Assembly (NCBI GenBank): GCA_963575745.1
Contig: CAUYUJ010017887.1
Location: 157,317 to 221,316 of the forward strand
Direction: 5' to 3'
Source of the DNA: Prorocentrum cordatum
Lineage: Eukaryota > Sar > Dinophyceae > Prorocentrales > Prorocentraceae
DNA length: 64,000 nt
Numbering within the stretch: the first letter of the stretch is position 1; the number at the start of each line of letters is the position of its first letter. Below, one piece after another: positions 14,551 through 35,301 of the stretch. Under the pieces are notes generated by a model that saw nothing but the letters and a program-made list of their open reading frames with translations, was not told the DNA's origin and did no database searches. The position numbers and the translations under genes were made by a program.

Positions 14551-14594
14551 CTGAGATGAGCGGCGGATTATATCTTAGATATAAGTTGAGGACG
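14551..14594 (+). repeat. Left terminal inverted repeat of giant transposon
   Basis: Starts CTGAGATGAGCGGCGGATTA and ends AAGTTGAGGACG. Differences from the right copy are at bases 3, 4 and 10 only. It contains a perfect palindrome TTATATCTTAGATATAA. The flanking target duplication is CA at 14549-14550. Confidence 0.9.
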
Positions 14595-15010
14595 CCTGTT
14601 AGTAACTAAGTTATAGCTAAGTTATAACTAAGTTATAACTAAGTTATAACTAAGTTATAAATTGGCGCGTTGAATAGTGACTGACAGCGTCTGAGTTATA
14701 AGTCAACCTCTAATACCTTATTAGAGCTCGTTGAGTTAGTAAAAGTCAACAGACTTAGGAGGTTGAATTATAAGTCGGGTTATAGCCAAGTTAGGTGACT
14801 TATACTTAACTCAATTAGCCCTGAACTCTTCGACTTAGTAATTGAGTTATAATCAAGTTATAAGTCGACTTAGCTAAGTCGACCTAACTCAACTTACTAA
14901 GTCGACCTAAGTCGAGTTAGCTAAGTCGAACGTTCGAGTTACTAAGTCGACGTAGTTCGACTTACTAAGTCGAACTGTTTCGACTTATAAGTCGACGATT
15001 TCAACTTATG
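14595..15010. repeat. Left subterminal motif array
   Basis: It begins with about five tandem 11-mers of the type CTAAGTTATAA (14605-14660). A dense series of TAAGTCGA and its complement TCGACTTA follows (about 14860-15000, eight or more copies), often head-to-head as CGACTTANTAAGTCG palindromes. Arrays of short motifs just inside the ends are where En/Spm-type transposons bind their accessory protein; a similar role here is inference. Confidence 0.75.
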
Positions 15011-15440
15011 TTTAATCGTTTAACATGATTTTGTAAAATGATTAAGAACGGTTTTTAACATGTTTGCGGCACCTGGCCATACACAACACCAACGAATATG
15101 TTGAGAACTGGTGATCCTGATTTTCCTCTGGTAACAAAAGAGTGTTTGTTCTGGATCCACCGACAACAACATAATTTTGAAATAATGGTGATCTGGTTTT
15201 TGTCTGGTAACATGTACATTGACAGTCAAGACCCTAGAACTCTCATCAAAATGCAAGGCGGCTCGGCTCGTAGCTTATATTTTTTATGTTCAAAAAGTAT
15301 GGACGATGTGTGTAATTCCAATATCTACATCGTAAGCGTACGTCGTAATCGTATCTAGCGCGCGTTACGCCCTCCACCTTGCGCCTGGTTGCGGGCGCGG
15401 TTGCGGTTGCGGCGGCGTCCTTCAGCACGCGCTTCGCCAT
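15011..15440. other. No gene seen; unique sequence
   Basis: A/T-richer sequence without motifs I recognise. Short frames on both strands show no domain-like composition. It separates the subterminal array from the low-complexity block. Confidence 0.5.
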
Positions 15441-16139
15441 CTGGCGGGCGACGGGCACGGGGGGAGGGAGGAGGGAGGAGGGGAATGAGGGGGGACGGGG
15501 GGGGGGCGAGGGAGGAGGGGGGAAGGAGGAGGAAGGAGGAGGTACTATGTGTATTTATGTACTATATATATATGTACCATGGGCATACCGTATAATATGC
15601 ATGCGCATTATAGATGCATATGTTGGGGGGAAGATCAATGGATACAAGGGGAAGAGGACGGGGCGGCGCACGGGGGCGCGAAGAAATCGCATCTCTCGGG
15701 ACGCGGCCTGGGCTGGAGAGCCGCCCTTGCCCAAGGCGGCCCCGCGTCGGGGGGGGGGGGGGGTCCTCCTCCTCCTCCTCCTCCTCCTCCTCCTCCCATC
15801 GCCCCCCTCCTCCTCCTCCCCCCCCCCCTCCTCCCTCCTCGAAGACGACGACTGCGGCGACGACGAAGATGAGGAAGGGGAGTGGAGGATGGTGCAATGC
15901 ATGATGAGGAAGAATGAACGACGGAGGAAGAGAAGGGGGCGGCTTCGACAGTCGACTTTTTTTTTGTTCGACAGTCGATTTGTGTTTTTTTTTTTCGACA
16001 ATCGATTTTTGTGTATTATTTCCCAACCATCCTGTGGTGTTGGGTCCTCGTTTTGAAGAGACGGTGCCCCGCGTTCTCCTTCCTTCCTTCCTTCCTTCCT
16101 CCCGCTGCCTCCTCCCCCCTCCCATCATCATCATCATCA
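15441..16139. repeat. Low-complexity block with purine and pyrimidine microsatellites
   Basis: (GGA/GGGGA)n tract at 15462-15541; G13 followed by (TCC/CTC)n at 15749-15840; three TCGACAGTCGA/TTCGACAATCGA motifs separated by T-runs at 15945-16010; CCTT repeats at 16079-16100. Long overlapping open frames in several frames at once are products of the trinucleotide tracts and are not genes. Confidence 0.75.
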
Positions 16140-17455
16140 ACACCCAATTCGGCACACCCCTCACACGTTTCGTGGCTCCATAGGGAGCTCCACCGAAGGC
16201 CCCAGTGGCCGCGGCCGCATGCGTCACCCACACCCATTTCGGCACACCCCTCACACGCTTCGTGGCTCCATAGGGAGCTCCACCGAAGGCCCCAGTGGCC
16301 GCGGCCGCATGCGTCACCCCTCACATACCCCTCCACCGAAGGTTCGTGGCCCATAGGGAGCTCCACCGAAGGCCCCAGTGCCCGCGGCCGCATGCGTCAC
16401 CCACACCCATTTCGGCACACCCCTCACACGTTTCGTGGCTCCATAGGGAGCTCCACCGAAGGCCCCAGTGCCCGCGGCCGCATGCGTCACCCACACCCAT
16501 TTCGGCACACCCCTCACACGTTTCGTGGCTCCATAGGGAGCTCCACCGAAGGCCCCAGTGCCCGCGGCCGCATGCGTCACCCACACCCATTTCGGCACAC
16601 CCCTCACACGTTTCGTGGCTCCATAGGGAGCTCCACCGAAGGCCCCAGTGCCCGCGGCCGCATGCGTCACCCACACCCATTTCGGCACACCCCTCACACG
16701 TTTCGTGGCTCCATAGGGAGCTCCACCGAAGGCCCCAGTGCCCGCGGCCGCATGCGTCACCCACACCCATTTCGGCACACCCCTCACACGTTTCGTGGCT
16801 CCATAGGGAGCTCCACCGAAGGCCCCAGTGGCCGCGGCCGCATGCGTCACCCACACCCATTTCGGCACACCCCTCACACGTTTCGTGGCTCCATAGGGAG
16901 CTCCACCGAAGGCCCCAGTGCCCGCGGCCGCATGCGTCACCCACACCCATTTCGGCACACCCCTCACACGTTTCGTGGCTCCATAGGGAGCTCCACCGAA
17001 GGCCCCAGTGCCCGCGGCCGCATGCGTCACCCACACCCATTTCGGCACACCCCTCACACGTTTCGTGGCTCCATAGGGAGCTCCACCGAAGGCCCCAGTG
17101 CCCGCGGCCGCATGCGTCCCCCACACCCATTTCGGCACACCCCTCACACGTTTCGTGGCTCCATAGGGAGCTCCACCGAAGGCCCCAGTGCCCGCGGCCG
17201 CATGCGTCACCCACACCCATTTCGGCACACCCCTCACACGTTTCGTGGCTCCATAGGGAGCACCACCGAAGGGTCCAGTGCCCGCGGCCGCATGCGTCAC
17301 CCACACCCATTTCGGCACACCCCTCACACGCTTCGTGGCTCCATAGGGTTTCGGCACACCCCTCACACGCTTCGTGGCTCCATAGGGAGCTCCACCGAAG
17401 GCCCCAGTGCCCGCCGCCCGCATGCGTCACCCCCACCCATTTCGGCACACCCCCC
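16140..17455. repeat. 90-bp minisatellite, about 15 units
   Basis: The unit contains TTTCGGCACACCCCTCACAC, CGTGGCTCCATAGGGAGC, TCCACCGAAGGCCCCAGTG and CCCGCGGCCGCATGCGTCAC. It repeats with an exact 90-bp period from 16381 to 17310 (CCCGCGGCCGC at 16381, 16471, 16561 and so on), with irregular units at 16310-16370 and 17340-17450. Divergence between units is one or two bases, so amplification was recent. Each unit has an imperfect hairpin TTCGTGGCTCC/GGAGCTCCACCGAA. As 90 is divisible by three, several frames stay open for hundreds of codons; these are not credible genes. A lone unit at 18599-18660 lies next to the transposase 3' end. Confidence 0.92.
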
Positions 17456-17939
17456 GCATTTCTCGCACGGCAGGGTCATCACCACGGTGGCGTGCCAGGG
17501 GCGCACCATGCGCGAAGGCGACGGGGCGGGGGAACGGCGCTCCGGGGGCGGCCAGACCTCCGGGGCGCGAGCAGTCCGCGGCCAGACCATCTCTCGGTCC
17601 TGTGGACTCTCGCCCTGGGCCGTCGGCTGCCCGGCGCGCTGCTCCCTCGGTCGACGTCGCCCAGGCGTGATCCTGGATTGCGGCCGCCACGAGGTAGGGA
17701 ACGGCAAGAAGGAGGACGACGACTGGTGGCTGGAGCTCTACGTGCTGCTCTCGCGCGCCACGCGCCACGAGGACCTCCTGCTCATGCGGGCGCCGCGCAT
17801 CGAGTTCTTCCTGGCAGGGCCGCCGCAGGGCTTGCGGAAGCAGCTGGAGCAGTTTGCGGCGCGCACGAAGCGGTGCAGGAGGGAAGCGACGGCCCTCGCC
17901 AGGGAGCTCGGCTTCACCGAGTTCATCCGCGAGGCCTGA
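17456..17939 (+). pseudogene. Pif1/SF1-like helicase C-terminal remnant
   Basis: The 3' end of a superfamily 1 helicase. Two motifs are visible: a motif V-like stretch ITTVACQGRTMREG and a motif VI-like stretch WWLELYVLLSRATRHEDLLL followed by MRAPRIEFFLAGPPQGLRKQL. The end is a natural TGA at 17937-17939 after GFTEFIREA. Between the two motifs, 17518-17664 (147 nt) looks like an intron with AGGCG at both borders; removing it joins REG to VILDCGRHE in frame. Upstream, where the ATPase motifs should be, lies the 90-bp minisatellite, so the gene is truncated. It is on the opposite strand to the cargo genes. Pif1-family helicases unwind DNA 5' to 3'; a Helitron helicase end is the alternative. 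Confidence 0.5.
17518..17664 (+). other. Candidate intron (introner-like) in helicase remnant
   Basis: Borders are GAAG|GCGACGG at the 5' end and GCCCAG|GCGTG at the 3' end, with AGGCG repeated at both joints. Non-GT donors and short direct repeats at the joints are reported for dinoflagellate introns. Removing it restores spacing between helicase motifs V and VI. Its length is a multiple of three, so it does not break the frame. Confidence 0.4.
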
Positions 17940-18598
17940 CCTGAGGAGCGTCTCCCCCGAGCCGCGCCTTCTCTCGACTGCCCGACTAATTGTTTGGCCT
18001 CGCGCCGCGGACGACCCGCGCGCGTCGCTGGGACCCTCTCGGGGCGACCAGCGCGCGTCGCGGGAACTCCGTGCTGCGGGGGGCCCGGCGCCTCGTTCGC
18101 CCGTCGTCGCTCTGCCCAGCGGTCAGAGACTTGCCCGCTATCAGCCAGCCAGTTAGCTAGTCAGCTCTCTCTGCTTCGCGCAGCGGACGACCCGCGCGCG
18201 TCGCTGGGACCCCGCCCGGGGCGACCAGCGCGCGTCGCGGGGACTCCGCGCTGCGCTGCGCCCGCAGCCTTGGATTTTGGAGTGCGCGGGCAAAGAGGAA
18301 GGAAAAGAAGAGCCGAAAGCGGGCGCGATCCTCGCAAGAGGCGTGTCGACATGGGCGTCGCGACGTGCGGACGCTGCCGTCGGGGTTCCCGCGGAAGCTG
18401 CCTGCGGCGGCCACGCCCAGTGTCACGTGTGTTCGGACAGGCATGCTCGACACTTACACTAGGCGGTTTCATGATCGCATTCATGCAAATATATTCACTC
18501 GCGCGCAGACCCATTCATACTCAGATTCCCTCGCGCTCTGACTCGCCCGCGTTTTTTCTCTCGTAATCAGATCTATCGTATTCCTTTGCGTTGTGTAC
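17940..18598. repeat. G+C-rich spacer with a ~175-bp tandem pair
   Basis: The block at 17996-18085 (CGGACGACCCGCGCGCGTCG, GGCGACCAGCGCGCGTCGCG) recurs with small changes at 18171-18256. No coding sequence is supported. Confidence 0.6.
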
Positions 18599-18660
18599 CC
18601 CGCCACATTTCGGCACACCCCTCATGCGGTTCGTGGCCCCATAGGGAGCGCCACCGAAGA
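18599..18660 (+). repeat. Single diverged copy of the 90-bp minisatellite unit
   Basis: It reads CCCCGCCACATTTCGGCACA, then CCCCTCATGCGGTTCGTGG and CCATAGGGAGCGCCACCGAA, about 10% different from the array units. It sits just downstream of the transposase stop and may mark the original location from which the array expanded. Confidence 0.7.
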
Positions 18661-18726
18661 AGATACTCACAATTGCGATACTCACGACTGCATATGGTTG
18701 GGTCCTTCGCCAGGATAATTTTTCAG

Positions 18727-20748
18727 CTACGCGCCCCTGCCATGATAGTAAGGCACGATGATCTTCACGGTCGATGGTGGAATGCGCATGTATACAACGG
18801 GCTTGACAATCGACGTCGGGTCCAAGAACACGTCTGGCGTCGCCGATTCATCCAAGATGGTCCAAGTCCCAGGGTCCACAGCGGCAGCCTCCCGCACGTG
18901 GACTGCGATGAAATCGCCCATCGCATAGAACAACACAACTCTACCTAAACGAAGTGCACCGCCAGTGCGGATGAGCACGTAGTCGTCCCTCTTCACGCCA
19001 CCACACTTCAACGCAGCCGCTGTAGACGTATCCATCTGGATGCCTGCGATATCGAGTTTACGGCACTTCGACGTCGATATATACTGCTCGTCGAACTGGA
19101 ACCGCCCCTCGACAACGTCTTGAACGTAACAGTTTAAATATCCAAACGTTGTCGTGTGCTCGACCTGGTTGTAAACGTGTACCACGGTCGTCTTCACGTC
19201 TTTGTGTTTCCGTTCTGGCGCAAAGCACGAAATCACCCTACCCAGTCGAAGTCGGTCGTCGGGCACGTGCACCAAATGATGAAACTTCACCTTGATAAAC
19301 GTATGGTACAATCGGCGAAACAGTACCGCGTGCTCTGCAATGGCCCCCGAAAGCGTGGCGTGCAATGCGCCCGTCATATCGCTCTCTCCTGATAGGAGCC
19401 CCAACATGAACGTTAACAGCTCGAAACATCGAACGTGGTCCGCTGGCACGCGGCCAGAGCACCTGTCCCGAAGAAATGCCAGCAACAATGGGCAAAGTCC
19501 GAGAACGTCGCTCGCAAACAGCTTCACGTGGTCGTTCGCTATGAAGTTCTCCGTGAACCACTCTGGCTTGGGAGGTGACGCGGTCAACTTGGGATGGATG
19601 TACAAGCGTGCGTAGGCGGCAATCTCATACATATCGATATTCAACCTCTTCAAACACGATGTGAGCGCCGCAATCTGAAGCCCCGCAACGCCATGCGATA
19701 CCAGGGTGTGCTGTCAATCCCTGATGTAATTACTCACGGGGCGCAGCACGCTTCTCAAACGAGGATCGCACAGCATCCCATGTTCATTATAACTAATGCC
19801 CAGCTTCGTTTCGAGCGCCTCCACCTTCGACATCGATATCTGCCCGACCTGCGACACCAAGATCTCGTGCATTCTCCAGAACGTGTCGTCGTCCAGCTGC
19901 TTGAGCTTCGATTTATCTACGCAGTCCAGTCCGACGGTGTACTGGCCGTCGGCGTAGCCAGTCTTGCGGATGAAGTTCACCACGTTCATGCACGAGATGC
20001 AGGGTTTCAGCCCTGCCGCCCCTTTAATGGCCAAAAACTCTTTGTGGCCTTTTTCATCAGCCATAAAACCGACCAGGCGAGCACGAAACACCCGCACGGC
20101 ACTCCCATGGGGAACTGCAAAGCCGCGTGTGAAGTTATGAGGCCCGTCAACGAACATGGCGACGAGAATATGCTTCAAGGGGGCGCTCACTCCCCCAGGA
20201 ATTCTCTCCACCAGCCTGGTGCGAACCGCGCCCAGGCAAAACCAGCCCCCCGTTCTATGGAGGAGCCAGCCTGGTAGCTCCAGAAAGGTGTAATAAAAAT
20301 TCCACAACTGGCGCCCAACATCAGATCTGAAAGGGCTGCCTGGCATCATCTCGTCACCGTAAAACACCAAGCTACAAGTACACAAAGGTGCCTTGTCGAG
20401 CGCAGCAGACAGCATATTGGCAAACTTTTCGCTGATAGTCGACATATAGTGCAGAAACGCAAATGGGTGTACATATTCCCACGGCCCGATGCCTGGGACA
20501 TCCAGTGTCTGCACAACAGGTCCGTATGGCGTCCTCGAGCGGCCATGCATCTCCGCTGCTATCCTGCACTGGCGTAGCTCATCTCGTCCTCCGAGCTCCT
20601 CGTCCCTAAGCATGCCTTTCCTATTCAGCGTCTGCAGGATGCGGGCGACGCTCGCCTTCGAACCCCGCGAAGTGGCCAGAAGCTCCGACCGCAGCTGCAT
20701 CCTCGTCTCATCATCGATGTCGATCGTGGCGGGTGCGCCCCGCTTCAT
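18727..20748 (-). pseudogene. DDE-type transposase-like gene with one in-frame TGA
   Basis: About 673 codons from ATG 20748 (MKRGAPATIDIDDETRMQL) to the stop at 18727, broken by TGA at 19714-19716 in an otherwise continuous frame (NYIRD-stop-QHTLVSHGVAGLQ). Candidate catalytic and structural features are VFYGDEMMPGSPF (Asp), LVGFMADEKGHKEF (Asp), KGAAGLKPCISCMNVV (Cys-x2-Cys, like the G..PC..C element of tnp2-type transposases) and, after the TGA, RVISCFAPERKHKDVK (possible Glu). A C-terminal domain with DYVLIRTGGALRLGRVVLF follows. By its place in the only TIR-bounded element here it is the likely mobilising enzyme. TGA for TGG (Trp) is the simplest explanation of the break. Family assignment is tentative. 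Confidence 0.6.
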
Positions 20749-21214
20749 GTTCGCAACACTGAACCTGAAACGGCTGTGGAAGAATGGCGACGGTTGCGAT
20801 GATACTAGAGACTGCGCGTGATAATGCTTATATGCATGGTGAATGCAAGACGTTGTTGTGTAAATAGTTATATTTGTATGTATATGAATGTATGTATGTC
20901 TGCGTGTACGCATGTATGCATGCATGTGTATATGTATGTATGTGTATATGCATATATGTATGCATGCATGCGCGTTTGTATATCTATATATGTATGTATA
21001 TGTACACGTGCCGACATCGATGCACATCCCTCGCGCGCGCAGCGGTGCGCGTTTTCGGAAGGAGGGTGAAACGTTGTCGCACTCTGATGCACCTTGGCAA
21101 GCTACCTTCGGCATGCCGCAACACAAACTTGCACAGGCGCAGAGAATGATGGCAGACACAGGGCCGCAAGTGAAGTCCCGCATTCACGCGACTCGAAGCG
21201 GATGACGGGTCGCG
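20749..21214. other. Transposase 5' region with TATG microsatellite
   Basis: A (TATG/TGTA/TGCA)n tract runs from about 20874 to 21004. The transposase frame stays open through it (Tyr/Ile/His-rich), but this is microsatellite translation and I place the start at 20748. No other gene is seen. Confidence 0.6.
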
Positions 21215-21282
21215 ATGGGAGGGGACGGGGCCTGCTTATTCGAGCGGGAAGGGGGGGATCCGAGGCGATGCCGTCTGTCGGC

Positions 21283-21590
21283 AAACGCCCCCATGGTAGC
21301 TCCAGAAAGGTTTAACACAATTCCACAGCATGCGCCCAGCATCAGATCTCGAACGTCGACATTTGATTTACGATTTCGATGTGATGGTACTTTCGCAAAG
21401 CAGATCACACACATCGTGTGTATTTGTGTCGCTCTGAGGCGGCTTGCAAAACTGGCGCACAACACTCGACACACCTGCACATCACTTCCATTGGGCACTA
21501 TATTATACAAAGCCGTGTGTGAAAATCTGAGGCCCGTCAACATGGCGACGAGAATATGCTTCAAGAGGGCGCTCAGTCCGAGTCCTCCTC
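21283..21590 (-). pseudogene. Degraded fragment of a second transposase copy
   Basis: GGTAGCTCCAGAAAGGTTTAA at about 21294 parallels 20272. The peptide LKHILVAMLTGLRF...NIVPNGSDVQVCRVLCAS aligns with LKHILVAMFVDGPHNF...AVPHGSAVRVFRARLVG of the main copy (20050-20300). Frames are broken and the middle has diverged. It is only about 300 bp, on the same strand. Confidence 0.65.
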
Positions 21591-21899: not shown

Positions 21900-21939
21900 C
21901 ACGAGAGCCTCCAGCGCCTCGATTCTGGCCAACACCTCC

Positions 21940-22730: not shown

Positions 22731-23381
22731 CTACAAAAAGAAACGCCTCATGCCTTTGCGCTTATGCATTGGCTTAGCTGGAGGCATGCCCTGCAAATCC
22801 AAAGCGCACAACAAGGCGCTGCACTTCTTGATGTCGAGCTTCATTCCGAGATCATCCTCATCCCGCTGGTGGTTTTTCAGCATGACCATATAGTGCACGC
22901 GGCTACAATAGAAGCACACGTCGTCCTTCCCATCATCGTCCTTCTTGCACTTGCACCCCGCCTTCACGTAGCGCCTCAAGAAGTGGTTCCTCAGCTTCTT
23001 GCGGTACCAGAGCGTGCCCCAATACTGCGGGTATAAGATGCCGTCCTCGTCAGCCCGCTGCTTGATCTGCACCAACTTCCACGGCGTGGGCCCCTCCAGG
23101 TACGGCACCATCTTGACGACCTTCATCGGGTGGAACCGCACCTTCTTTTCCATGTCGCCCGCGGGCTTGGCGGGCTTGTATTTCTTCAGCGCTGGCTGGA
23201 GGCCGAGCTCGTCATCGCTCAAGTCCATGCTCGGGCTGAGCGTGAAGCTCGGTGGAGTGAGCGCTCCCCGCATGACCTCGTCCCTCGGCGGGAACGGCGT
23301 CATATTCTCCAGGCCTGTCGGGAGCGGAAACTGCAGGTGCGGAGCCGTCTCCGTCTGCGCTGCATAATTGGTGAAGGACAT
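22731..23381 (-). CDS. Hypothetical cargo protein with Cys cluster
   Basis: 216 residues from ATG 23381 (MSFTNYAAQTETAPHLQF). The N-terminal third is Pro-rich and likely disordered. The central part is folded (KKVRFHPMKVVKMVPYLEGP, YPQYWGTLWYRKKLRNHFL). Then a cysteine cluster CKCKKDDDGKDDVCFYC (C-x-C-x10-C-x2-C) may bind zinc, and the end is basic (KPMHKRKGMRRFFL). The frame is open upstream to a TTG at 23447, but the ATG is preferred. I do not recognise the family. It is a cargo gene of the giant transposon, on the transposase strand. Confidence 0.6.
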   Translation of the reverse strand: MSFTNYAAQTETAPHLQFPLPTGLENMTPFPPRDEVMRGALTPPSFTLSPSMDLSDDELGLQPALKKYKPAKPAGDMEKKVRFHPMKVVKMVPYLEGPTPWKLVQIKQRADEDGILYPQYWGTLWYRKKLRNHFLRRYVKAGCKCKKDDDGKDDVCFYCSRVHYMVMLKNHQRDEDDLGMKLDIKKCSALLCALDLQGMPPAKPMHKRKGMRRFFL

Positions 23382-24122
23382 CGACACTAACTGCAAGGAT
23401 CGATAGGCGATTGCGAGTGCACGTGGGCTTCGATCGTCGACGTACAACTGTAACGAGCCAAAATGGCTGGGGAGGCCGCGCTAGACGATACAGGGGGCGG
23501 CCTCGGAGCAGAGTGAGAATAAGATCGTAAAGTAAGATGGTATACCATGATAGTAGAGCACGCCACGATGTACGATAATCGAATACCTTTATGAGCTCGT
23601 CACATCTTCGGCTCCAGGCTTCCTATATCTACTCTCTACTATATTACTCTCACTCTACAATCGTTTACTGTGTTACTGCGGAGGAGAGAGAGGGAGAGAG
23701 AGGACAATAACACAATGGATTTGTTCGGTTCACATTGAGGCAGTCAGAAGGGCGTCACTCCCAATGACGCGCTGCGTGCAGACGCCTATGGCGATATCGA
23801 TCTGAGTCCGTGTTGCCCGACGTCGATGGCTGGGTAACGTCCCCGTGGCACATGCGAACCTGACCGTCTGCGCACTGAACGAAAAGATAACACACGATGC
23901 AACTGCAAATGCAAACGCTGTTGCCCTACACCAGCGTACAACAATGCTCAGCTGAGCGGGGTCGCGCTCCAATCGTGACTTCACTACGACGAGCGCCACT
24001 CCGTAAACTTCGATATCGATATATCTGCGAACAAAACGATTGTATCGGCGTGCCCTGCAGGGAGCGCTATGCCCAGCGTAGCGCACCACCTTAATTCGGA
24101 ACTCGGAGCGCTGCTGCACCGC
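23382..24122. other. Intergenic; no gene supported
   Basis: Contains GAGCCAAAATGGCT at 23455 (also in the LINE A leader), a (GA)n tract at 23682-23702 and scattered TCGATATCGAT motifs at 23791 and 24010. An open frame at 23730-24119 on the minus strand has no ATG in a sensible place and no domain-like composition. Confidence 0.45.
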
Positions 24123-24869
24123 CTACCAGTTCCCCTTGTCACCGTCGATCCACTCGACCACAGCCTTCCACGCCTTCTTCTCGTCGCCGCCGTACGCGCC
24201 CCAGGTCCCCCAACTGAACATCTTGTCCCAGACAACGCCCACCTTCTTGACCCGCCACTTGGAGTTCTTCTCGCCCGTATAGATGGCATAATCCTTGTAA
24301 TAGATGGGGGGCTGCTTATTGAGCGCGGGTAGCGGGGGCGCCTTGGTCGACGTCGATGTTGGGCAGGCCTTGGCCTTGGCCTTGGCATTGGCCTTGCCTT
24401 TGGCCTTGGCCTTAGCTTTGGCCTTGCCCTTGCCTCTCGTCGTCTCGGTCTCCTCCAACATCTTCTTGATGTACTCGTCGATCTCCTCCTGCCGTACCGC
24501 GGGCCCCCCGCTGGCAGCGGCGGGCTTCTTCATAGCTGGATGCTGCTCCTCATCGTCTTCGTCGTCATCGACTTCGGCCAGCGCGCGCTTCCTCGAAGCT
24601 TGGAGCGGCGGCGTCCCCGAGCCAGGATCGGGCACGGCGCCCTTTGGAGCGGGCGTCGTCGGCGGCTCGAGGGACCCCGCTGATGAGGTCCTCCGCAAGC
24701 CCGATGGGGGCTCATTCAAGAAGGTCAGCGGGATGTCGCCCTGCCGCGGACCCCCTCCTGCCGACGCGGTGCCCATGAGCTGGCCGAACATGTTAACCAT
24801 CGTGCTCATCTGCTGCATGAATGCGTCCTGGTGCCTGCTGTTCGGGTTCGGGCGCTCGAACGGGACCAT
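24123..24869 (-). CDS. Hypothetical cargo protein with Lys-Ala repeats
   Basis: 248 residues from ATG 24869 (MVPFERPNPNSRHQDAFMQQ). Regions in order: Met/Gln-rich helix; disordered Pro/Ser segment (RRTSSAGSLEPPTTPAPKG); acidic DDDEDDEEQ; HPAMKKPAAASGGPA; a predicted helix VRQEEIDEYIKKMLEETE; an array of KA/KAKG repeats coded by GGCCTT-type hexamers (24366-24432); and a compact C-terminal domain (YYKDYAIYTGEKNSKWRVKK to KAWKAVVEWIDG). KKPAA and KA tracts are common in dinoflagellate proteins. The Lys-Ala tract suggests nucleic-acid contact. The function is unknown to me. Confidence 0.6.
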   Translation of the reverse strand: MVPFERPNPNSRHQDAFMQQMSTMVNMFGQLMGTASAGGGPRQGDIPLTFLNEPPSGLRRTSSAGSLEPPTTPAPKGAVPDPGSGTPPLQASRKRALAEVDDDEDDEEQHPAMKKPAAASGGPAVRQEEIDEYIKKMLEETETTRGKGKAKAKAKAKGKANAKAKAKACPTSTSTKAPPLPALNKQPPIYYKDYAIYTGEKNSKWRVKKVGVVWDKMFSWGTWGAYGGDEKKAWKAVVEWIDGDKGNW

Positions 24870-25338
24870 GCTGCTGCTGCCCCCCGAGGGGTGCTCATAT
24901 ATTCCGTTCGTTTTGCGGGCTTTCGTGATCTGCCCTGCTTGCAGGAGCAGGGCCTCGCTAAACTAAGGCTTGGGGAGCACGGAAGCCCCGAACACCTGCG
25001 GCTCGATCTCGACGAATTGCGACACAAGGAGGGGGTAGTTGCAGACAGACGATTGCGCCGAGCGCCTCGATGCACGTTTCTTCTTGATCTGCTCCTCTGG
25101 GCAGCACGCGACCCCCATCGGGCGCCCAGCCTCGAGCATGTAGCCCCGTGGGGTGCCCTAGGGGGAGCGGGGTCGTCTGGTTGAGGCCCCTGGATCGCCA
25201 ACAAATTCAATAAAAGGCGGGGCAACATCTTGAAAAAAGCTGGGTGAAAACCTTGGCCCGAAACATGAGATGGCGATGTGGACGGAGAGGGAGGGGGCAG
25301 TGGGGATGGGGAGAGAACGAGAGTGTGGGTGATAGTGG
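24870..25338. other. Intergenic with a duplicated gene-tail module
   Basis: Positions 25180-25400 resemble 28015-28220: GAGGCCCCTGGATCGCCA versus GAGGCTCCTGGACCGCCA, then an A-rich stretch, GAGATGGCGATGTGGACGG, GAGAGAACGAGAGTG, and a shared protein tail ending VDIE. No separate gene is seen in 24870-25180. Confidence 0.55.
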
Positions 25339-25396
25339 TTACTCGATGTCGACACGTTCGGGGCCTCTCAATATCGACATCGCCTCGTCCTCCTCC

Positions 25397-26080
25397 TCAC
25401 CCACCTTCTCCCCCTGATCCTGCCCATATAACCCCCGACCCCGATGCTGAGACCTGGGCGCTCGATGCGGGGGTCGCGCATTCGACGTCGAGTGCATGCG
25501 ATGTCGATGTCGAGTCCTTGAGCTGGTTCTTGTACTCGAACGCCTGCGCGGGCGTAGGCTCCCGACCCGCGGCGATCTCGCTCGCGACCACGAGGGCTGC
25601 CAAGCGAGGCACCGTCTTCTGGTCGGGGTAGTGCAGGCCGAGGGTGTGCACGAAGTACTCGCCAACCTTATCGAGCTTCGCCTGGTGGGGGTCCTGTAGC
25701 AGCGCCCACATCTCCGTCGTCAGGTAGTGCTCTGGGTACTGGTGCGTCTGGTACTGCACGTTGAAGTTACGCCCGTTACGCTTGCCCGTCATGGCGATGT
25801 CCATCGTCACCGACTCCGTTACTGCAGTTATCAGCTCGCGCTTCTGGGCGGCCGTGAGGATGTCTGTCGCGTTGATGGCGTGTACGGTCTGAGTCGCGTC
25901 ATCCCTGGCGCAACCACCACGACGGACGATCATCTTCACGTGGGCGACCTGGCGCTCGATCACCTGGGCCCGATCCGCATCCTCCATCTGGGCGGTCACC
26001 GCCCGCGCGAAGTCGACGACGCCCTTGAAGGTGGCGAGACACGACGCCCTTGCGGTGGGTGCCGCCGCCGCGCTCGTCAT
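25397..26080 (-). CDS. Hypothetical cargo protein, probably frameshifted at its C-terminus
   Basis: 227 residues from ATG 26080 (MTSAAAAPTARASCLATFKG); the frame is open to a GTG at 26119. It is largely helical (VIERQVAHVKMIVRRGG, TAAQKRELITAVTESV), with a conserved-looking core QYQTHQYPEHYLTTEMWALL and HTLGLHYPDQKTVPRLAAL. A neighbouring frame (to 25339) reads GEKVGEEEDEAMSILRGP then ERVDIE, matching the tail of the 28158 protein (EEATLISRGTESVDIE). A small indel near 25430 therefore probably removed the original acidic tail. Function unknown. Confidence 0.55.
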   Translation of the reverse strand: MTSAAAAPTARASCLATFKGVVDFARAVTAQMEDADRAQVIERQVAHVKMIVRRGGCARDDATQTVHAINATDILTAAQKRELITAVTESVTMDIAMTGKRNGRNFNVQYQTHQYPEHYLTTEMWALLQDPHQAKLDKVGEYFVHTLGLHYPDQKTVPRLAALVVASEIAAGREPTPAQAFEYKNQLKDSTSTSHALDVECATPASSAQVSASGSGVIWAGSGGEGG

Positions 26081-26119
26081 GGCGATGCCGATGCGGACGC
26101 GCTTCGATGCCGATTGCAC

Positions 26120-26690: not shown

Positions 26691-26696
<6 letters not shown>

Positions 26697-26800: not shown

Positions 26801-27246
26801 TGCCACCGACGACGACGAACGACGACGACGACGGCGGCGGCGGTGACGAACGACGACGACGACGACGGCGGCGGCTCTGGTTTTTGCATCTGCAGCGGCG
26901 CCGTCTCTAGCCGAGATCGACAGTCGACTGTGCCCTGCTCCTCGCGCTTATCATCTGCGGCGCTGCGAGGGCCTAGGCGGGGTCCTCGAAGGCCTTGGCT
27001 GCGGTGCCTCGCTGCGCGACGCCACGCGCGGCTCCACCGCGTCCTCGACCATCAAACTCGAAAACACAAGTCGACATCCATTCAGCAGCAAGCCGCGAAA
27101 GAGGCCCCATGTACCCTAAGGGGCCCCGAAGAGAGGTGGCGCCGCACTTAAATACACACCGCAGCCTCGCACCGTGAGCACGGGAGGTTGCGTCTAAGGT
27201 CGTCGTCGTCAGCCTACCGACGCCACTGGCCCGTGTGATACTGCTG
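26801..27246. other. CGA microsatellite and spacer
   Basis: (CGA)n at 26806-26873; TCGACAGTCGACTG at 26918; otherwise G+C-rich sequence without a supported gene. Confidence 0.5.
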
Positions 27247-27530
27247 CTACAGGGCCTGCCGCGCGTTCGTCACGCACTTGTGAACGAACTTCGACGGGTT
27301 CGTGAGGCTCCCCTCGCCCATCTTCTTGAACAGCTTGTACAACACGTTGTTGGCCTCGCGATGACCCTCATCGCTGAACTGGGCCAGGAGGAAGACGCTC
27401 TGCTGGGCCGTCTCGTCGATCTCGTATCGACGAAGAAGGCCGAGCCAGGCGCGAGGGTCCCGCTCGAACGTGGCCCGGACGGGCTCCTGCACCTCCCCAG
27501 CGACCGCAGGCGCCTCCTCCGCGGCCGCCT
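27247..27530 (-). pseudogene. Small conserved-module gene fragment
   Basis: The frame reads VQEPVRATFERDPRAWLGLL, RRYEIDETAQQSVFLLAQFS, DEGHREANNVLYKLFKKMGE, NPSKFVHKCVTNARQAL and then TAG. The TAG may replace CAG, since translation could go on a few residues (QQYHTGQW). No start codon is evident and the upstream part is missing. The second copy at 26697 in inverted orientation shows the module has been copied. Function not known to me. Confidence 0.45.
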
Positions 27531-28157
27531 TCCATCGACTTCGATGTATTTAGCAAGCCTGTATTTCGATAGTCGGGGGCCATATGCGTGGCCAGGGACT
27601 CGGGGCAGGGGGCGGGGTCACGACCACTCGGGGGCACTCAGGACCAGGGGGGGCAACGCTGGACTACAATGTGGTTCACGTGAAACGGCCTTCTGTTCCA
27701 CCTCCATGCTCACTGGCGTTGCAGATGATGAGTTAGCGTCGACAGTCGAGGTGGCTTCGCCAGCTGCTCGAGGATCGACATCTGATAACTTCTCGGCCTT
27801 GGCGCCGCCATTTCATTCGTAGGAGGGGAGGGGTCAGTTGTTTCGACATCCAAGCGGATGAGGTCTCAAAATAGACTTGGCACCCAGAATGAGGATGAGG
27901 GAGAGGATGACGATGGGGAGGAAGCGGGGGGGGAAGGAGGAGCAAGATGAGGGGCAGATGGGCGGTGGGCGAGATAGCTGGGTGCGTGAGCGAACTGAGA
28001 CAGACGTATGTGCTGAGGCTCCTGGACCGCCACAAAAAAAAAACAATGAAAGGTCGAGCAAAAAAAAACTAAACGTAGACCCCCCGCACTGGAGATGGCG
28101 ATATGGACGGCGAAGGAAGGAACATGGGGGAGAGAACGAGAGTGCGTGTGGCAGTGG
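27531..28157. other. Intergenic; second gene-tail module
   Basis: Dispersed TCGA motifs (27530, 27565, 27735, 27770, 27840). Positions 28015-28157 are the counterpart of the 25180-25340 module. Two A-runs (28033-28042 and 28061-28069) interrupt it. No gene is seen. Confidence 0.5.
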
Positions 28158-29096
28158 TTACTCGATGTCGACGCTTTCGGTGCCTCTCGATATCAACGTC
28201 GCCTCCTCCTCCTCGGCCACCTCCTCCTGCTCCTGGTATCTCTCCTCTTCCTCCGCATCGTCGGACTCGCGGGCGTAGACCCCCCGCGTTGGCACTGGGC
28301 GCCAAGCACTGCTGGTCCCCGACGTGCCGTAGACGGGGCCAGCCTCCTTGCCGCCCTTGGTGCCGCCCTTGCCGCCCTCGCCGATCCTGCGCGACTTCTC
28401 GGCCCGCGGCGGCGACCCTGGCGGCGGCACAGGCCCGACATTGCGCACCATGTGGTACTCGGTGTAGACCCAGTCCCACAGGCTCTTCCACGCTGGGTAC
28501 GCCATGTGGTCGTCCCTGACCGCCTGGCTCGCGTAGAGCTGAGAAAAAGGCGCCTCGCCGCCCCCCGCCAGCTCCCATGCCTTCCCAGGCGCCATCCACG
28601 CCTTGACGCTCTGCAGCATGCTGATGTGCCCGCGCTTGCCGTACTGCTCGCCCGAGTTGAAGATCTTCGGGTTGTACACCCGCACGTGCATACCCTCGAC
28701 CTTGTTCCTCGACATTATGAAGTTCAGCATCGCGTTGCACATGCGGCCCACCGTGTCGCTGCGATGAAAGCCGTGCTGGCACTCCACCAGGACGGGGATC
28801 GACGGCCACTCCTTGACCTTGTAGTTCGACACCTCGATGACGATGTCCTTGCACGCGTCGACGAACCCGGATTGTGACATCACCGTCTTCTGGGTTTGTG
28901 CGTGAAGACCTTTCTCCTTGTGTCCGATCGTCTTGCTCGGGTCTTTCGTCAACAAGCGCCTGACGTCGAAGCGAATGACTTTCGACCCCATGCGCTCGCA
29001 CTCGTTCGCGGCATCGTTCACCAAGTCCTTGTGGATCTGGCCATAGGTGATGACACCCACGACCTGCGCGAACCGCATCGAGCGGCTCTCCTCCAT
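28158..29096 (-). CDS. RapZ-C/PTP-like CX5R-motif cargo protein
   Basis: 312 residues from ATG 29096 (MEESRSMRFAQVVGVITYGQ); an upstream GTG frame start at 29168 is less likely. The core reads KVIRFDVRRLL, EKGLHAQTQK, then VLVECQHGFHRSDTVGRM, where C-QHGFH-R-S fits the CX5R signature shared by the RapZ C-terminal domain (GCTGGxHRS) and tyrosine phosphatases. FDVRRL before it favours the RapZ-like arrangement. An aromatic region follows (YPAWKSLWDWVYTEYHMV), then a Gly/Lys linker and an acidic tail ending RGTESVDIE. The tail is shared with the 25397 gene. Such domains bind nucleotide-like or RNA ligands in bacteria; the role here is unknown. Intact frame. Confidence 0.55.
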   Translation of the reverse strand: MEESRSMRFAQVVGVITYGQIHKDLVNDAANECERMGSKVIRFDVRRLLTKDPSKTIGHKEKGLHAQTQKTVMSQSGFVDACKDIVIEVSNYKVKEWPSIPVLVECQHGFHRSDTVGRMCNAMLNFIMSRNKVEGMHVRVYNPKIFNSGEQYGKRGHISMLQSVKAWMAPGKAWELAGGGEAPFSQLYASQAVRDDHMAYPAWKSLWDWVYTEYHMVRNVGPVPPPGSPPRAEKSRRIGEGGKGGTKGGKEAGPVYGTSGTSSAWRPVPTRGVYARESDDAEEEERYQEQEEVAEEEEATLISRGTESVDIE

Positions 29097-29658
29097 GGCG
29101 CAGGAAGAGTACAGGAAGAGAAGGTTGCAAGAGTGCGCTGCAGCACAGCCGAAGGCGCGCGCGTGCACTCAAAGAGCCGCAATGGCTAGTAGGCGATGGT
29201 CGATGGGCCAGCCTCGATTGTCGAGTGTCGATTGCCGATCTGGAAGATAAGCCAACTGCAGCCCAGCAGTTCGCACAGCGACTTTGAGCTCCCCTATAGG
29301 CGCCAAGGTCAGTTCCGCACACAGCAAAACCCGTCAGGGCTGCCCAAGACACAGGAACCCAAGGGCGAGCAAGCTCACCACTCCCAAGGGCCCAGCGAGG
29401 ACAAACCCATCAGGGCGACGAATGAACCAGGACTCCAGCCTGGATTGAGACTATGAATAAGGGGAGCTCGAGACCGCTTCTGAGACACCCGTGCTCTTCG
29501 ACATCGATTGCAGCTGGCTCCAACTCCAGGGCACAATGCAACATCCAAGGCAATATCAAGTGCAATCGCGATGAGGCAAGTATTACCACATAGTACGTGC
29601 ACCTATATACGTACACATATAACACTCATGTAAGCATTGCCACATAGTACCTGCACAC

Positions 29659-29703
<45 letters not shown>

Positions 29704-30016
29704 GACATATATAGACACATTCCCCTTATACGCAGAGATATATGTATATATATAGACACTTGTATATATGTGTAGATATATATGTGTAGAGATATATGTT
29801 GAAATATTATAGACCCATGTATATACGTAGAGATATAGACAGGCCCAAGAGGAGCAACCTCCACCACATCATATGGGCAGCAGGGCTTGGACAGGACGGG
29901 CGAATGAGGAGGACGCTGAGGAAGGAGGAAGACAAGGAGGAAGGAGGACGAGGAGGAAGGAGGAGGAGAACGATATCGATGCTCTTTTTTTCCGTGCCAG
30001 CCCTGTCACGAAACTC
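29097..30016. other. Intergenic with TA microsatellite; no gene seen
   Basis: TCGATGG/TCGATTGTCGAGTGTCGATTG cluster at 29196-29240; (TA)n at 29661-29697 followed by ATATATGT-rich sequence to 29835; (GGA)n-like purine tract at 29900-29975. Short frames are unconvincing. Confidence 0.6.
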
Positions 30017-30826
30017 TCAGTCGTCCTCGACTTCGACAAGCTCCTCTTTCTCGTCGTCGGCGGCAACGCCGTCGGAGGTACCAGCATTGCTTTGAGAGTC
30101 CTCACCTGCCTGAGCTGATTCAAACAACTGCATCGCCTCCGCCGCGGAGCTTGCTGTCCTGTACCTCACGCTCACACGGCCGTCATCGCCTGTACGTTTC
30201 AGCACGAACTGGCTCTTGGTGTAAGAGAAGCTCAGCCCAGGATAATCCTTAGTGCCGACCTTGAGCTCAGCAGGAACCTTCTCGGACGGATGCTGCCTGT
30301 GGACGATTCCCGACTTGATCTCGACCTCGCAGCACGCCTTCAAGTACATCACGAGGTCCTCCTCCAGCTGCACATACAGGGGGGTCCCAGGCCTGTCGAT
30401 AATGACCTTGAAAGGGATGCCCTTGATGTCGCCCATGGTCGGACCATGTACCGTCGCTGTGGTGCCCTGAATCTCGCCGTGGTTCGACCTGAATCGTTTC
30501 TTCCATGTCCTGGAGCCAGGCGGCGGTAAGGATGCCTTCTCCATTCCGTGAACGCTAAGCTGGTCCAAGAAGGCTAGCAATGACGATCTGTATGCGTCAT
30601 CTCCAAGGCGCTCCAATGTTTCACAAATCGATGTGTTAACAAGAGGCCTGATGCCCTTGGAACGCGGATGCCCAAGAAGCTTCATCACCACCTCGCAGCT
30701 CTTCTTGAGGCGAACGAATACACAACCGTTTAGCTCCCTGCAATTGTCCAGAATGACTGGCGAAGCCATGTGAGGGGCGCGCACGCGAACAACTTTGTCC
30801 ACGCACCAGGCCATAGCATCCACCAT
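30017..30826 (-). CDS. Hypothetical cargo protein, 269 aa
   Basis: Starts at ATG 30826 (MVDAMAWCVDKVVRVRAPHM). The N-terminal half is helical with Arg/Lys patches (FVRLKKSCEVVMKLLGHP). The middle contains WKKRFRSNHGEIQGTTATVH and a strand-rich stretch KGIPFKVIIDRPGTPLYVQL. Near the end are KDYPGLSFSYTKSQFVLKR and an acidic tail EEKEELVEVEDD-like, comparable in style to the acidic tails of the 25397 and 28158 proteins. Uninterrupted frame with good amino-acid balance, so probably real coding sequence. No family recognised. Confidence 0.6.
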   Translation of the reverse strand: MVDAMAWCVDKVVRVRAPHMASPVILDNCRELNGCVFVRLKKSCEVVMKLLGHPRSKGIRPLVNTSICETLERLGDDAYRSSLLAFLDQLSVHGMEKASLPPPGSRTWKKRFRSNHGEIQGTTATVHGPTMGDIKGIPFKVIIDRPGTPLYVQLEEDLVMYLKACCEVEIKSGIVHRQHPSEKVPAELKVGTKDYPGLSFSYTKSQFVLKRTGDDGRVSVRYRTASSAAEAMQLFESAQAGEDSQSNAGTSDGVAADDEKEELVEVEDD

Positions 30827-31265
30827 GCGTCGGACATCGATATCGACGTATTCCTAGAAGCGCGCGGGAGCGCATCTACATCTGGAGCCAAACAAGCAAC
30901 GCGCGACGTCGAGCGATAAGCGCATGCGACTTTCGATTGACGTGGCGTCGTGAACCGCGTTCCCCGAAAGAACAAACACACAAGGTTTGGAGCCTAAGCG
31001 TCTTAAGTAAGTTGTAAGTGGTTTAAGTGTATACGCGGCCCTGGATAAACGTTCTAAGTTTCGAGCTCGACCGCGATTTGGAACTGGGCACGGCGACGAC
31101 GATGACGCCGACGAAGCGGACGACGACGACGACGATTATGTATACTTCGTGGTAACTATTGCAAGAACTCCAAAACTCCATGGGAATCCAACAGTCCATG
31201 ATCGATGTCGATGCCTCATCTCTACATCGCTCCACTGCTTCGCAAATCGATGCGCGCATGTATGT
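30827..31265. other. Intergenic; no gene seen
   Basis: ATCGATATCGACG motif at 30836 just upstream of the 30017 gene; CGA/GAC-rich tract at 31080-31135; ATCGATGTCGATG at 31201. Nothing coding is supported. Confidence 0.5.
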
Positions 31266-31969
31266 TTACCTGCCGCGCGCTACTTTCTTCATGGTGGACA
31301 CCTCGATGGTCGGCGGAGTGGGCCTCTTCCGCGGGGCAGCGGTCGCGACCTTGGGAAGCGTGAGCTCGTCTCCAACGTTCAGAGCCATGACGTTGGTGAC
31401 TACGGGGATCTTGATATCGTACACTTTAGCGTTGCCCACAGATACGGCCACCGAGTGCTTAGTGATGGCGCAATTCGGCTTCGTCGACTCCGTGCTGTCC
31501 ACGTGCCTGATCTTGAAAGCAAGGCTCGGCGCTTTAGCGCCAGGGTCCGAGAGGGCGAAGGGCCCCGCGATCCTCTCATCAGGGCTGGGCACATCGAATA
31601 GGGGCGATCGCTCTCGCCGCACTGCTTGACGGTCAGAGCCGTCGGCACGATGATCAACTTTTTCGCCTGGAACTTCTTCCTAGAGAAAATGCCCATGTTG
31701 GGTTTGCTGACTGCCATCAGATCGCCCCCATCGACTTCGAATTTCGACGTCAAAGATATCATGACCATAGCAATTGCTGACTTGATGTTGATCGCGACGA
31801 GATCGGTAGATTTAGAAGCTGCGTCATCTGGCCACCCAGCGAGCAACTCTTTCTTGGTTGTAGTAAAGCAGTACTTCTCGATGAACTTTGGAATGGGGCA
31901 CCGAATAACGATGTGGTGCAAGGAGCCATTCTGCATCACCTCCCGAATCCGAACGCCATCCTCCGACAT
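31266..31969 (-). pseudogene. Hypothetical cargo gene with a 2-nt frameshift
   Basis: Frame one runs from ATG 31969 (MSEDGVRIREVMQNGSLHHI) to TVKQCGE near 31610. The sense continues in another frame as RSPLFDVPSPDERIAGPFAL to VSTMKKVARGR at 31266. The switch fits an extra AG in GGCGAGAGCGATC (GAGAG for GAG). Restored, it would be about 234 residues and strand-rich (KVYDIKIPVVTNVMALNVGD, EVDGGDLMAVSKPNMG). It begins 84 bp after the end of the 32054 gene. A sequencing error at the dinucleotide is possible. Function unknown. Confidence 0.55.
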
Positions 31970-32053
31970 CGAAGCTATCTTCCACGTTTTCCCTTAGACC
32001 GAAGGTGCAAGGGCACAACTCATGCACAGAGGGGCTAATACATGTAAGAGTTT

Positions 32054-33622
32054 TTATGTGGCGTAGAGGGGTGGCGGGTCCGAGGTGTTTGAGGGAGTTA
32101 GGGGGAAACCACTGAAACTGGTAAACCACCCGTAGCTCGGCCGCGCCATTGCACCTTCATCGTCCTTCCTCAGCCTGATGGTGTCATCAACCTTAAACCC
32201 TCTCTGCTCCAAGAAGCAGATGTTAGCGTTCGCCAGCTCCCCCGTGCTGGCGTCGTACTGCAGCATGCCACTGAAGGGGGTCTGCTTGACGGAGTCCCCA
32301 TCGGCACCGCTGTCGTGCTGGGCCGACTGGCAGGTATACGGGTTGTCGATCTCGATGGTACCATTTTGTTTTGCCTTCAATGCCTCGATGCACTCGCGAG
32401 CGACGCACTCGATGTTTGCGTATCGCTCATCCACCTTTTCCCTAACAACACCATTGCTATCAACTGGTCGGCCTTACCTATGATCGGAATGCGTTCAATC
32501 GTACCGATATCGATCTGCCTGGAAACGCTGCGAAGATGCCGCAAGGCCTTCTCTGCTGCCATCGCTTTAGACCTCGCCTCCGTGCTAGCGAAGAGGGACG
32601 CGATCTCTGAGCGGGTCACAAACCTGCACATTCGACTCTGCACGGACTCGGGGGGGCCGTTCACGTGAGCCTTGACGACGGCCATTACCAGGTGGGGCAT
32701 CATCTCCGTCGCCGCGAGCTTTGCCTTGCACAATGTCTCGAACACGTACCCGCCCACCAAGGCGCCCAGCGGGCGCGCACCTTGACACGAACTGCACGAG
32801 GTCCTTGATGAACTGGCCAGGGGACCCCCCACCATATTTCGCCACGACGTCAGCGCATGCGTCGATATCGTCAACGTACTTCGATTCCGATTTGCTCGCC
32901 TCGGTCTTCACCCTCGCCCAGTCGATTACGGACCCGTCGCGCCCCTGCTCGGATGCAATGGCCTGGATGTGAAGCAAGAGCTCGAAATGCGTTTCTTCAC
33001 TCTGCACCTGGCCCGTCGCCTGCTTTGCCGACTGGATCAAACCTGGAAGTTTTGGCCAGCGTTCCTCTGCCTCCTTTTTCACCATCAACCACCTCAGCCC
33101 AGTGTCAAGTGCCCTTTCCAATTGTTTATCTTTGCTTTGGAACTGCCCCGTGTTGATGCGACCGTCGATGTCGGACAACGTGTTCTCCTTCGTCTCCACT
33201 CTCTCTAAGCAAGCCACCAGGAACTGATTTGCATGCCCAGAGCTCACGCTCCCTGCGATAATCGATTCGGGCGGGGATTTGCCAAACAGATTCGACGATC
33301 TCTGAAACTCCTGGGTATACTGCGCAATCGTGCCATTCTTATCTTCGATGCAAACAGAACCAGCCGTTGCCGCGAAACTAAATTTGTTCCTCACGATCTT
33401 AGCCCCCAGCCTGTGCACCTCGCAAGCCTTGGTGCCCAATCCATATCTGTTTGAAGGGTGGATGCCTACTTGGTGAGGTTTTAGATACAGCCACACAGCC
33501 ATACCAATAGAAATTAACTTCTCGAGGATCACATCTACCATTCCGACAAGCCCATCTGCTGACGACAGTGCTTCCTCGATGAGGCCGTCCAGGGCATCGA
33601 CCCCGTCAGCGAACGACGCCAT
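32054..33622 (-). pseudogene. Hypothetical cargo gene with two frameshifts, ~520 codons
   Basis: Three frames carry one continuous protein. From ATG 33622 (MASFADGVDALDGLIEEALS), which includes HQVGIHPSNRYGLG and KIVRNKFSFAATAGSVCIED, the first frame reaches LVQFVSRCA near 32785. A GC lost from a GCGCGC tract shifts it to RPLGALVGGYVFETLCKAKL and on to RIPIIGKADQ near 32465. A lost G (CAGTTGAT for CAGGTTGAT) then shifts it to VDSNGVVREKVDERYANIEC and on to the end at 32054. The N-terminal half is helical. Both lesions are in short repeats, so decay or assembly error are both possible. Function unknown. Confidence 0.55.
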
Positions 33623-34974
33623 CGCGCGCTCGATATCGAGGACGCTGCAGGAAATCGAGGTGCGACTCTCCTGGCGCTACGCGGCTGCGGGCCCGACTTC
33701 GATGGCAATCGAGTTCGATGGCATCGATTCCGATGGCAAGAGGAAGGGGGGGAGGAGGAGAAGGAGGAAAAGGAGGAGGAGGAGGAGGAGGAGACGGATA
33801 CTGATAAGGAGAGGAGGGAGAAGAGAGGAGGGGGAGGAATAATGACTGGCACAAGGGGGGTAGGAAATGATGAGGGGAATGAGGAAGAGGAGGATGCCGA
33901 CGACGAGGAAGAGGAGCTGGAGGCGAGGAAAGAAGGAGGACGAGGGCGGTCGCGGTGGGAGGGGGGCGCGGCGCCTGGCACTTGTTGCACGGAGGGGCGG
34001 GCGGCGCGCGCGCGCGCCGCTCGCCGCTCCGACCGACCAGACCGATCCCCCCCCACCCCTATATACCCCCACCCCCGCAACGATAATCGATGTCCTCTTC
34101 GATCATCGATGTCCCTCACCGCGGTGGGGCGAGGGGGGGGGGGAGGAAGGCGAGGCTCTCTAAGGCAAGAACAATCCGCGGCCGTGGGAGTTACCATCAT
34201 CGTCGTCGTCATCATCACCATCATCACCGTCATCATCGTCGTCGTCATCATCATCATCGTCATCGTCATCATCACCATCATCCTCATCATCATCATCATC
34301 AGATCTCTCTCTCTCTATCTCTCTCTCTCTCTCTCTCCCTCCCCCCCCCTCCCCCTTTTCTTCTCACTGCAAGGAGCGCCCTTTCTTGTAATGGCTGCTC
34401 ACGACACTCGCGAGCGTAACAAGATCGTTTCACGATCCGTTATTTTGCGGGGGCAAGGGTGGAACAGTTCACGAACGTAAAGTGCACGCGCCTTCAGCGC
34501 CTCCGCTCTGCGTTTCTTTTCGCTCTTGCCTGCGTCGCGACAAGAAAGAAAAGTTTTTGTTTGGAAAAAAGTTCAACAACCACGAAAAAGGACACGCATG
34601 TGCACACGCGCGGCGCGCCTCCTTCTTCTCTCCAATCGCGGGGTGCTCGTGCGACCCGTAGAACAGACAATTACAAGGCAGAGGGGGCGCGCGCCGCGCT
34701 ACTGCTGATAAGAGTATCGCAGGCGGCGCGCGTATGCATCGATATCGATATCAACATCGACATATGATTGTGCATGTGCATACATGCGCATGTGTACGTG
34801 CGCGCGCGTTATCTACATCGCAATGCGTGAACACACCTTACACGCGCATAGTTGCAAAACTATGTGTGTACGAAAATGATCATATGTAAGCGCATGTGTG
34901 AAACGCTGTAGTATATGACTGAATCCCATGATGAATATATAGAAAACCACACATCGAGGATTTACTTTGGACAT
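33623..34974. repeat. Low-complexity right interior of the giant transposon
   Basis: TCGATGG/ATCGAGTTCGATGG cluster at 33700-33735; (GGA)n at 33741-33792 and more purine tracts to 33950; ATCGATGTCC pairs at 34085-34110; (CAT/CGT)n at 34194-34302; (TC)n at 34303-34345; ATCGATATCGATATC at 34737. Long frames through these tracts are not genes. Confidence 0.7.
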
Positions 34975-35257
34975 ACTAACTCGGGGCTAATTCGACTTAG
35001 TAAGTAAGAATAGTTCGACTTAGTAAGTCGAACTAGTTCGACTTAGTAAGTCGAAGAAGTTCGACTTACTAAGTAGACAACTTCGAGTTATAATTCGACT
35101 TATAAGTCGACTTATAAGTCGGCTGTCGACTTAGCTTTTAGGTTCCAACTCAACTTATAAGCTGACCTAAATCGATCACCTAAGTCGGTTATGCTAAGTC
35201 GGCCTAAGTCGACTTATAACTCGACTTCGTAAGTCGCCTAAGTCGGTTAGTAACTCA
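34975..35257. repeat. Right subterminal motif array
   Basis: Repeated TTCGACTTAGTAAGTCGAA palindromes and single TAAGTCGA/TCGACTTA motifs, the same words as in the left array at 14860-15000 and in similar density. The opposite array plus matching terminal repeats make the two ends structurally symmetrical. Confidence 0.75.
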
Positions 35258-35301
35258 CGTCCTCAACTTATATCTAAGATATAATCCGCCGTTCATCAAA
35301 G
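35258..35301 (-). repeat. Right terminal inverted repeat of giant transposon
   Basis: Read on the minus strand it starts CTTTGATGAACGGCGGATTA and ends AAGTTGAGGACG, matching the left repeat at 41 of 44 positions. It is followed on the plus strand by the CA target duplication at 35302-35303. Confidence 0.9.

Follow-up and report, generated by a model that had tools for sequence, protein, structure and literature searches.

A probable giant cut-and-paste transposon with a predicted RAG1/Transib-like transposase and conserved accompanying genes in the dinoflagellate Prorocentrum cordatum

The 64,000-nucleotide stretch of the Prorocentrum cordatum genome analysed here (contig CAUYUJ010017887.1 of assembly GCA_963575745.1, positions 157,317 to 221,316; hereafter the window) contains a block at 14551–35301 with symmetrical ends and a transposase-like gene, raising the question of whether such a block moves as a DNA transposon, by which enzyme, and what its other genes do. 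An original prediction, made from the sequence of the window, had proposed a large eukaryotic DNA transposon with a transposase gene and its genes on one strand, and our analysis supports it. We consider it highly probable that the block belongs to a giant DNA transposon of dinoflagellates that moves by cut-and-paste and is of autonomous type, with a DDE transposase of RAG1/Transib-like fold and accompanying genes kept together with it. The evidence consists of the ends and target duplications, unoccupied paralogous sites, multiple copies, a gene order shared by three families, ratios of nonsynonymous to synonymous substitution rates (dN/dS) below 1 between families 2 and 3, and the predicted fold and motifs of the transposase. 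The window copy itself is broken by a stop in the transposase and frameshifts in other genes.

The left terminal inverted repeat (14551–14594, plus strand) starts with CTGAGATGA (A type, with the same end bases as other A-type ends) and the right one (35258–35301, minus strand) with CTTTGATGA (B type); they are identical at 41 of 44 positions and share an identical 34-bp inner core, which matches the window twice at up to three mismatches, against 0.00 matches expected. They are followed inwards by subterminal motif arrays, of the GTTATAACTAA and TTCGACTTACTAAGTCGAA types on the left (14598–15008, plus strand) and on the minus strand on the right (34987–35250). A palindromic subterminal motif accounts for 12 strand matches at seven places, each at most 600 bp from an end, where 0.01 would be expected. 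Among five complete copies of the same family (family 1), AAGTCG/CGACTT occurs 10–14 times in the first 600 bp, 16–20 times in the last 600 bp and 13–24 times in the whole middle. The element is flanked by CA on the left (14549–14550) and on the right (35302–35303). When the window flanks are joined with a single CA, they align through the junction to positions 3392–3989 with 86% identity over 638 columns, the corresponding empty site being TTTGACAGGCAGAC (3804–3817, plus strand, outside the element). The 44-bp repeats, the CA on both sides, the arrays and an empty site at 3800–3820 had all been claimed beforehand and are thus confirmed, and two more unoccupied paralogues were found at 37605–37622 (plus strand) and from position 1331. 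Both of these read GACTGG where the 3804 site reads GACAGG, and carry a T in place of the A of CA.

The original prediction had also proposed a genome search for further inverted pairs of ends, and this proved positive. The exact 34-bp core occurs 25 times (12 forward, 13 reverse) in the 4,128,499,153 bases of the 21,875 contigs, in which the reversed-pattern control gave no match; a 28-bp stretch of the core had no match in the viral contigs scanned. At five of the contigs beyond the window, 36–40 kb of DNA each (33 kb for C1187) was compared, the other contigs with an exact core being compared as short stretches around one end. Complete family 1 copies were found on C6002 (18,130 bp), C2473 (19,979 bp), C5202 (24,903 bp) and C1187 (30,812 bp, bounded by a second inverted pair of cores), in addition to the window, and a copy on C5513 is collinear up to window position 35115, followed by a run of 100 N. 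Identity to the window element is 93.2 to 97.7% for the pieces exceeding 2 kb and 89 to 96% for the shorter ones in the left 1.5 kb. As the length differences among these copies correspond to insertions in single copies, the uninterrupted family 1 element is about 18 kb long.

Across 29 end rows of family 1, which stand for 28 separate places (one of them, C7196, appears in two rows, C8813 and C12995 have a common flank, and a duplicate C3736 row was dropped), the end bases are constant, CTGAGATGA or CTTTGATGA, with TTTTGATGA as the one exception. The dinucleotide outside them is TG in 16 rows, CA in seven, CG in three, TA in two and AA in one, a pyrimidine–purine step in 28 of the 29; since it varies between ends, we rejected the possibility that CA is part of the terminal repeat. 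The same 2-bp dinucleotide is found on both sides in all eight complete copies, which come from three families. One such pair would match by chance with a probability of 0.28 and eight of eight with about 4e-5, both being rough values drawn from the 29 rows with the twice-read one counted.

The transposase gene, T, lies at 18727–20748 on the minus strand (673 codons, with an in-frame stop at codon 345 in the window copy). It has no credible family match in Pfam. Its motifs follow the order D-D-C(2)C-H(3)H-E. KPCxxCxN is present in 11 of 12 aligned transposase proteins, the remaining one, P0011, being a fragment without the region, and the C(2)C after the second catalytic D is also present in families 2–4. 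In P0001 the pair H490-xxx-H494 is followed by E512; H(3)H is kept in families 2–4, P0004, P0005 and P0012, its first H is Q in P0003, and P0008 and P0009 stop short of the motif. The remainder of the transposase is kept in P0001 and P0003 despite a G at the first catalytic D. The structural model predicts a RAG1/Transib-like fold over the catalytic core and insertion domain, with the Transib/RAG1 group as best match, at about 9–14% identity in structural alignments. The two Cs stand 19 and 22 residues after the second D, the same spacing as that of D708, C727 and C730 in RAG1. Motifs and predicted fold together suggest that T belongs to the clade in which CACTA and Transib/RAG are placed. The KDZ group as the home of T was set aside on described motifs, without sequence comparison, because C(2)C and H(3)H fit the CMCT clade as characterised in PMC12730594. 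With P0005 as query, the genome gave at least 63 transposase matches, 33 of them stop-free in the matched stretch. Homologues of T, like those of G10 below, were taken from among the 8000 best candidates scored, and the breadth beyond P. cordatum is read from transposase relatives.

What of the other genes? Two further families, with transposases that are 29% identical among the families compared, bear on this question. Family 2 is represented on C17592 (53382–68171, 14,790 bp, flanked by TG/TG) and on C17977 (176847–191628, 14,782 bp, AA/AA), with termini CTTCGTTG and CTTTGTTG; identity between these copies is 99.2% for the 4.4 kb on the right and 99.6% for the 1 kb on the left, and their likeness ends abruptly at both termini, the flanks being unlike. 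Over 3 kb, a further copy on C13780 is equally close and one on C15920 is 96.6% identical, both compared without their ends. Three of the four copies compared are thus more than 99% identical in the parts compared, and 692-amino-acid open frames surround the transposase, for which reasons family 2 may be active now. Family 3 is found on C14403 (78681–92578, 13,898 bp, TG/TG, CTTTGTTGTTCG at each end). Upstream of T and on the same strand, family 2 carries G10, G8, G7 and G6 in the order of family 1 (blastp E-values of 7e-8, 3e-7, 5e-6 and 7e-13). In family 3, G8, G7 and G6 precede T with the order kept (tblastn E-values of 3e-6, 3e-11 and 9e-23), and a G10-like frame was recognised via family 2. 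Control DNA, taken from the flanks in the window and from beside two elements, gave these queries no match at E 0.01. For families 2 and 3, simple counting yields dN/dS values of 0.11 for T, 0.29 for G10, 0.41 for G7, 0.45 for G8 and 0.72 for G6, with dS of T (1.8) near saturation and only 81 codons for G6. At least four accompanying genes thus appear to have stayed with the element, in order, since the families split.

Besides T, the 14–18-kb element carries about eight gene regions on the same strand as T (minus in the window), and some of these regions may be exons of one gene. G3 (22731–23394) is open in C6002 and in the four copies compared with it; the Lys/Ala-rich G4 region (24123–25367) has two stops relative to the C6002 frame. 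G5 (25406–26083) is located upstream of T in family 1, whereas its weak match in family 2 (E 0.001) is on the downstream side of T, possibly a gene move inside the module. G6 (27214–27549), a gene or exon with a conserved short domain, shows 40–52% identity to its counterparts in families 2 and 3 and has one stop in the window. G8 (30017–30853) has homologues in the same two families. G9 (31267–31993), a gene or exon, is frame-shifted and resembles by eye part of the G10 frame of family 2, with no significant match computed. G10 (32054–33619) is the longest of the accompanying frames, with 521 codons compared in C6002, and is also shifted here; among the best 8000 candidates scored, its homologues are three records, two of them Prorocentrum proteins. 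G7 (28158–29108) resembles the RapZ C-terminal domain: RapZ_C (PF22740) is the best or only Pfam match of the window gene and of four other versions, but with E-values of 0.0013–0.023 and 15.3–19.3 bits these stay under the cut-off of 27. G7 contains a C-x-x-G-x-H-R-S stretch similar to one in RapZ; its AlphaFold2 model (predicted local distance difference test score 41.5) was not used. Pfam gave no credible name for the other accompanying genes, nor did NCBIfam match any of the five proteins scanned. ENA records on contigs of 1.5–4.1 kb hold homologues of T (P0001), G7 (P0016) and G10 (P0014), and the size of these contigs suggests that they are transcripts.

The original prediction had regarded the cargo as unrelated to transposition, a description that the recurrence of four genes, their order unchanged, across divergent families makes misleading. 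Conserved order and dN/dS below 1 instead make it likelier that the module serves the life of the element than that it is passively carried. We judge it unlikely that an ordinary transposon took up unrelated genes of its host and carries them passively: such cargo would be expected to differ between families, whereas G10, G8, G7 and G6 are found with unchanged order and strand in both families 2 and 3, with dN/dS of 0.29–0.72. In favour of this alternative, no role in transposition is recognised for most of the accompanying genes, dN/dS among family 1 copies mostly lies close to 1, and G3, G4 and G9 could not be matched significantly to families 2 and 3. The last two points weigh against our own reading as well, for which only four of the eight accompanying regions are seen outside family 1. 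One stray family 2 match (E 0.035), probably due to chance, departs from the gene order. Matches to family 3 are also obtained with reverse-strand frames of family 2 (E down to 7e-38), because the DNA of these families is itself about 70–77% alike, so that the coding claim rests on the substitution pattern and not on the frame matches. In 40 comparisons among family 1 copies, dN/dS ranges from 0.2 to 3.4 (0.24–0.74 for G5 and G9), and several copies have stops or frameshifts, pointing to decay after insertion. Moreover, the first catalytic D is replaced by G in P0001, the protein that was folded, and in P0003, where the first H is missing as well. The empty sites are paralogous rather than allelic, and the ends of family 3 come from one copy and were located by their likeness to those of family 2.

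A much less probable alternative is an integrated DNA virus or a Polinton-like remnant using a RAG-like integrase, as a gene-rich unit of 14–18 kb with terminal inverted repeats and one-strand genes might suggest; against it, no polymerase, capsid or packaging family was matched in the frames scanned with Pfam, PHROGs gave no match for eight proteins, and the enzyme is of cut-and-paste type. A segmental duplication or assembly artefact mimicking an insertion, which the repeat-rich window flanks might favour, can practically be dismissed, as it would need every independent copy to be misassembled, including five complete family 1 copies at separate places, which agree in their end bases and have matched duplications, and family 2 copies that are almost identical although their flanks differ.

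Under the cut-and-paste transposon reading, the DDE transposase would bind the 44-bp ends and subterminal arrays and, judging from its fold and motifs, excise the whole 14–18-kb element at both ends, probably via flank hairpins as in RAG/Transib. Insertion would be staggered by 2 bp and would target a dinucleotide, in most cases CA/TG, and the accompanying genes would act as helpers of the element.

The idea that the whole interior moved as one unit holds for the element, not for the helicase remnant that had been included in it. The segment 16022–18715 is a nested later insertion, edged by CCCAACCAT and ATGGTTGGG, and consists of a 90-bp unit repeated 13.5 times with 96% matches, which can be read openly in several frames, and a helicase-like tail; being absent from five of five other copies, the remnant was rejected as a component. 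Repeats related to the 90-bp array lie directly outside the C6002 copy (1358024–1363240). Around the insertion site, the window contains diverged 173–179-bp tandem repeat arrays (13117–13634, 36683–37183, 38306–38746 and 43552–61710) and, near them on the minus strand, reverse-transcriptase-like open reading frames, one above the Pfam cut-off (8148–11138) and one just below it (40165–42060).

RAG1, the enzyme that assembles antibody genes, derives from a transposon, and the size and gene duplication of dinoflagellate genomes are long-standing puzzles. A RAG-fold transposase with conserved partner genes in a dinoflagellate would widen the known range of this fold, the module would be where partners besides RAG2 could be sought, and the element would be a concrete mover of 14–18-kb gene blocks in these genomes. 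Domain-based annotation would miss it, as the transposase has no credible Pfam match. More tentatively, and with less than even probability, giant RAG-fold transposons may make up a lineage that spans the dinoflagellates, with up to nine genes in each working as one co-evolving machine. In that case the accompanying proteins, the RapZ-like one included, would serve in transposition or in access to the host, in a role comparable to that of RAG2, and movement of these transposons would have helped to inflate dinoflagellate genomes.

How does the element compare with known systems? The CMCT clade, according to PMC12730594, has C(2)C after the second D, H(3-4)H before the last E, target duplications of 2–5 bp and, "in most cases", 5'-CA..TG-3' termini. 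The element shares the C(2)C between the second D and the last E, the H(3-4)H before the latter, a 2-bp duplication in eight of eight complete copies and a RAG1-like predicted fold; it differs in its CTNNG..CNNAG termini (CTGAG/CTTTG) with a variable adjoining dinucleotide, and in its roughly nine gene regions. The CACTA/En-Spm likeness proposed originally therefore stands at the level of the clade, by motif and fold, but not for the ends, which lack the CAC..GTG termini and 3-bp duplications of EnSpm/CACTA. With Transib/RAG the element shares the predicted fold over catalytic core and insertion domain, not the 5-bp duplication; Transib, RAG1-RAG2 and BbRAGL give the best structural match, though at the low identity given above, and no RAG2 homologue was recognised in the element. 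The nearest precedent for size is offered by the enlarged En/Spm families of Chondrus crispus, of 16–20 kb with 4–5 open reading frames according to PMC6431247; likened by description only, these too carry several extra genes in a CACTA-related element, whereas the element here has more gene regions and non-CACTA ends. No such dinoflagellate element was described among the part of the matching open PubMed Central titles that was covered, Repbase lying outside the search. Among giant eukaryotic transposons, the fungal Starships move by a tyrosine recombinase, Teratorn is a fusion of piggyBac and a virus, and Terminons use a reverse transcriptase; like them, the element is a large, gene-carrying mobile unit, but it relies instead on a DDE enzyme of predicted RAG-like fold. 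Rather than the undescribed class first suggested, it is best read as an undescribed lineage within a known clade.

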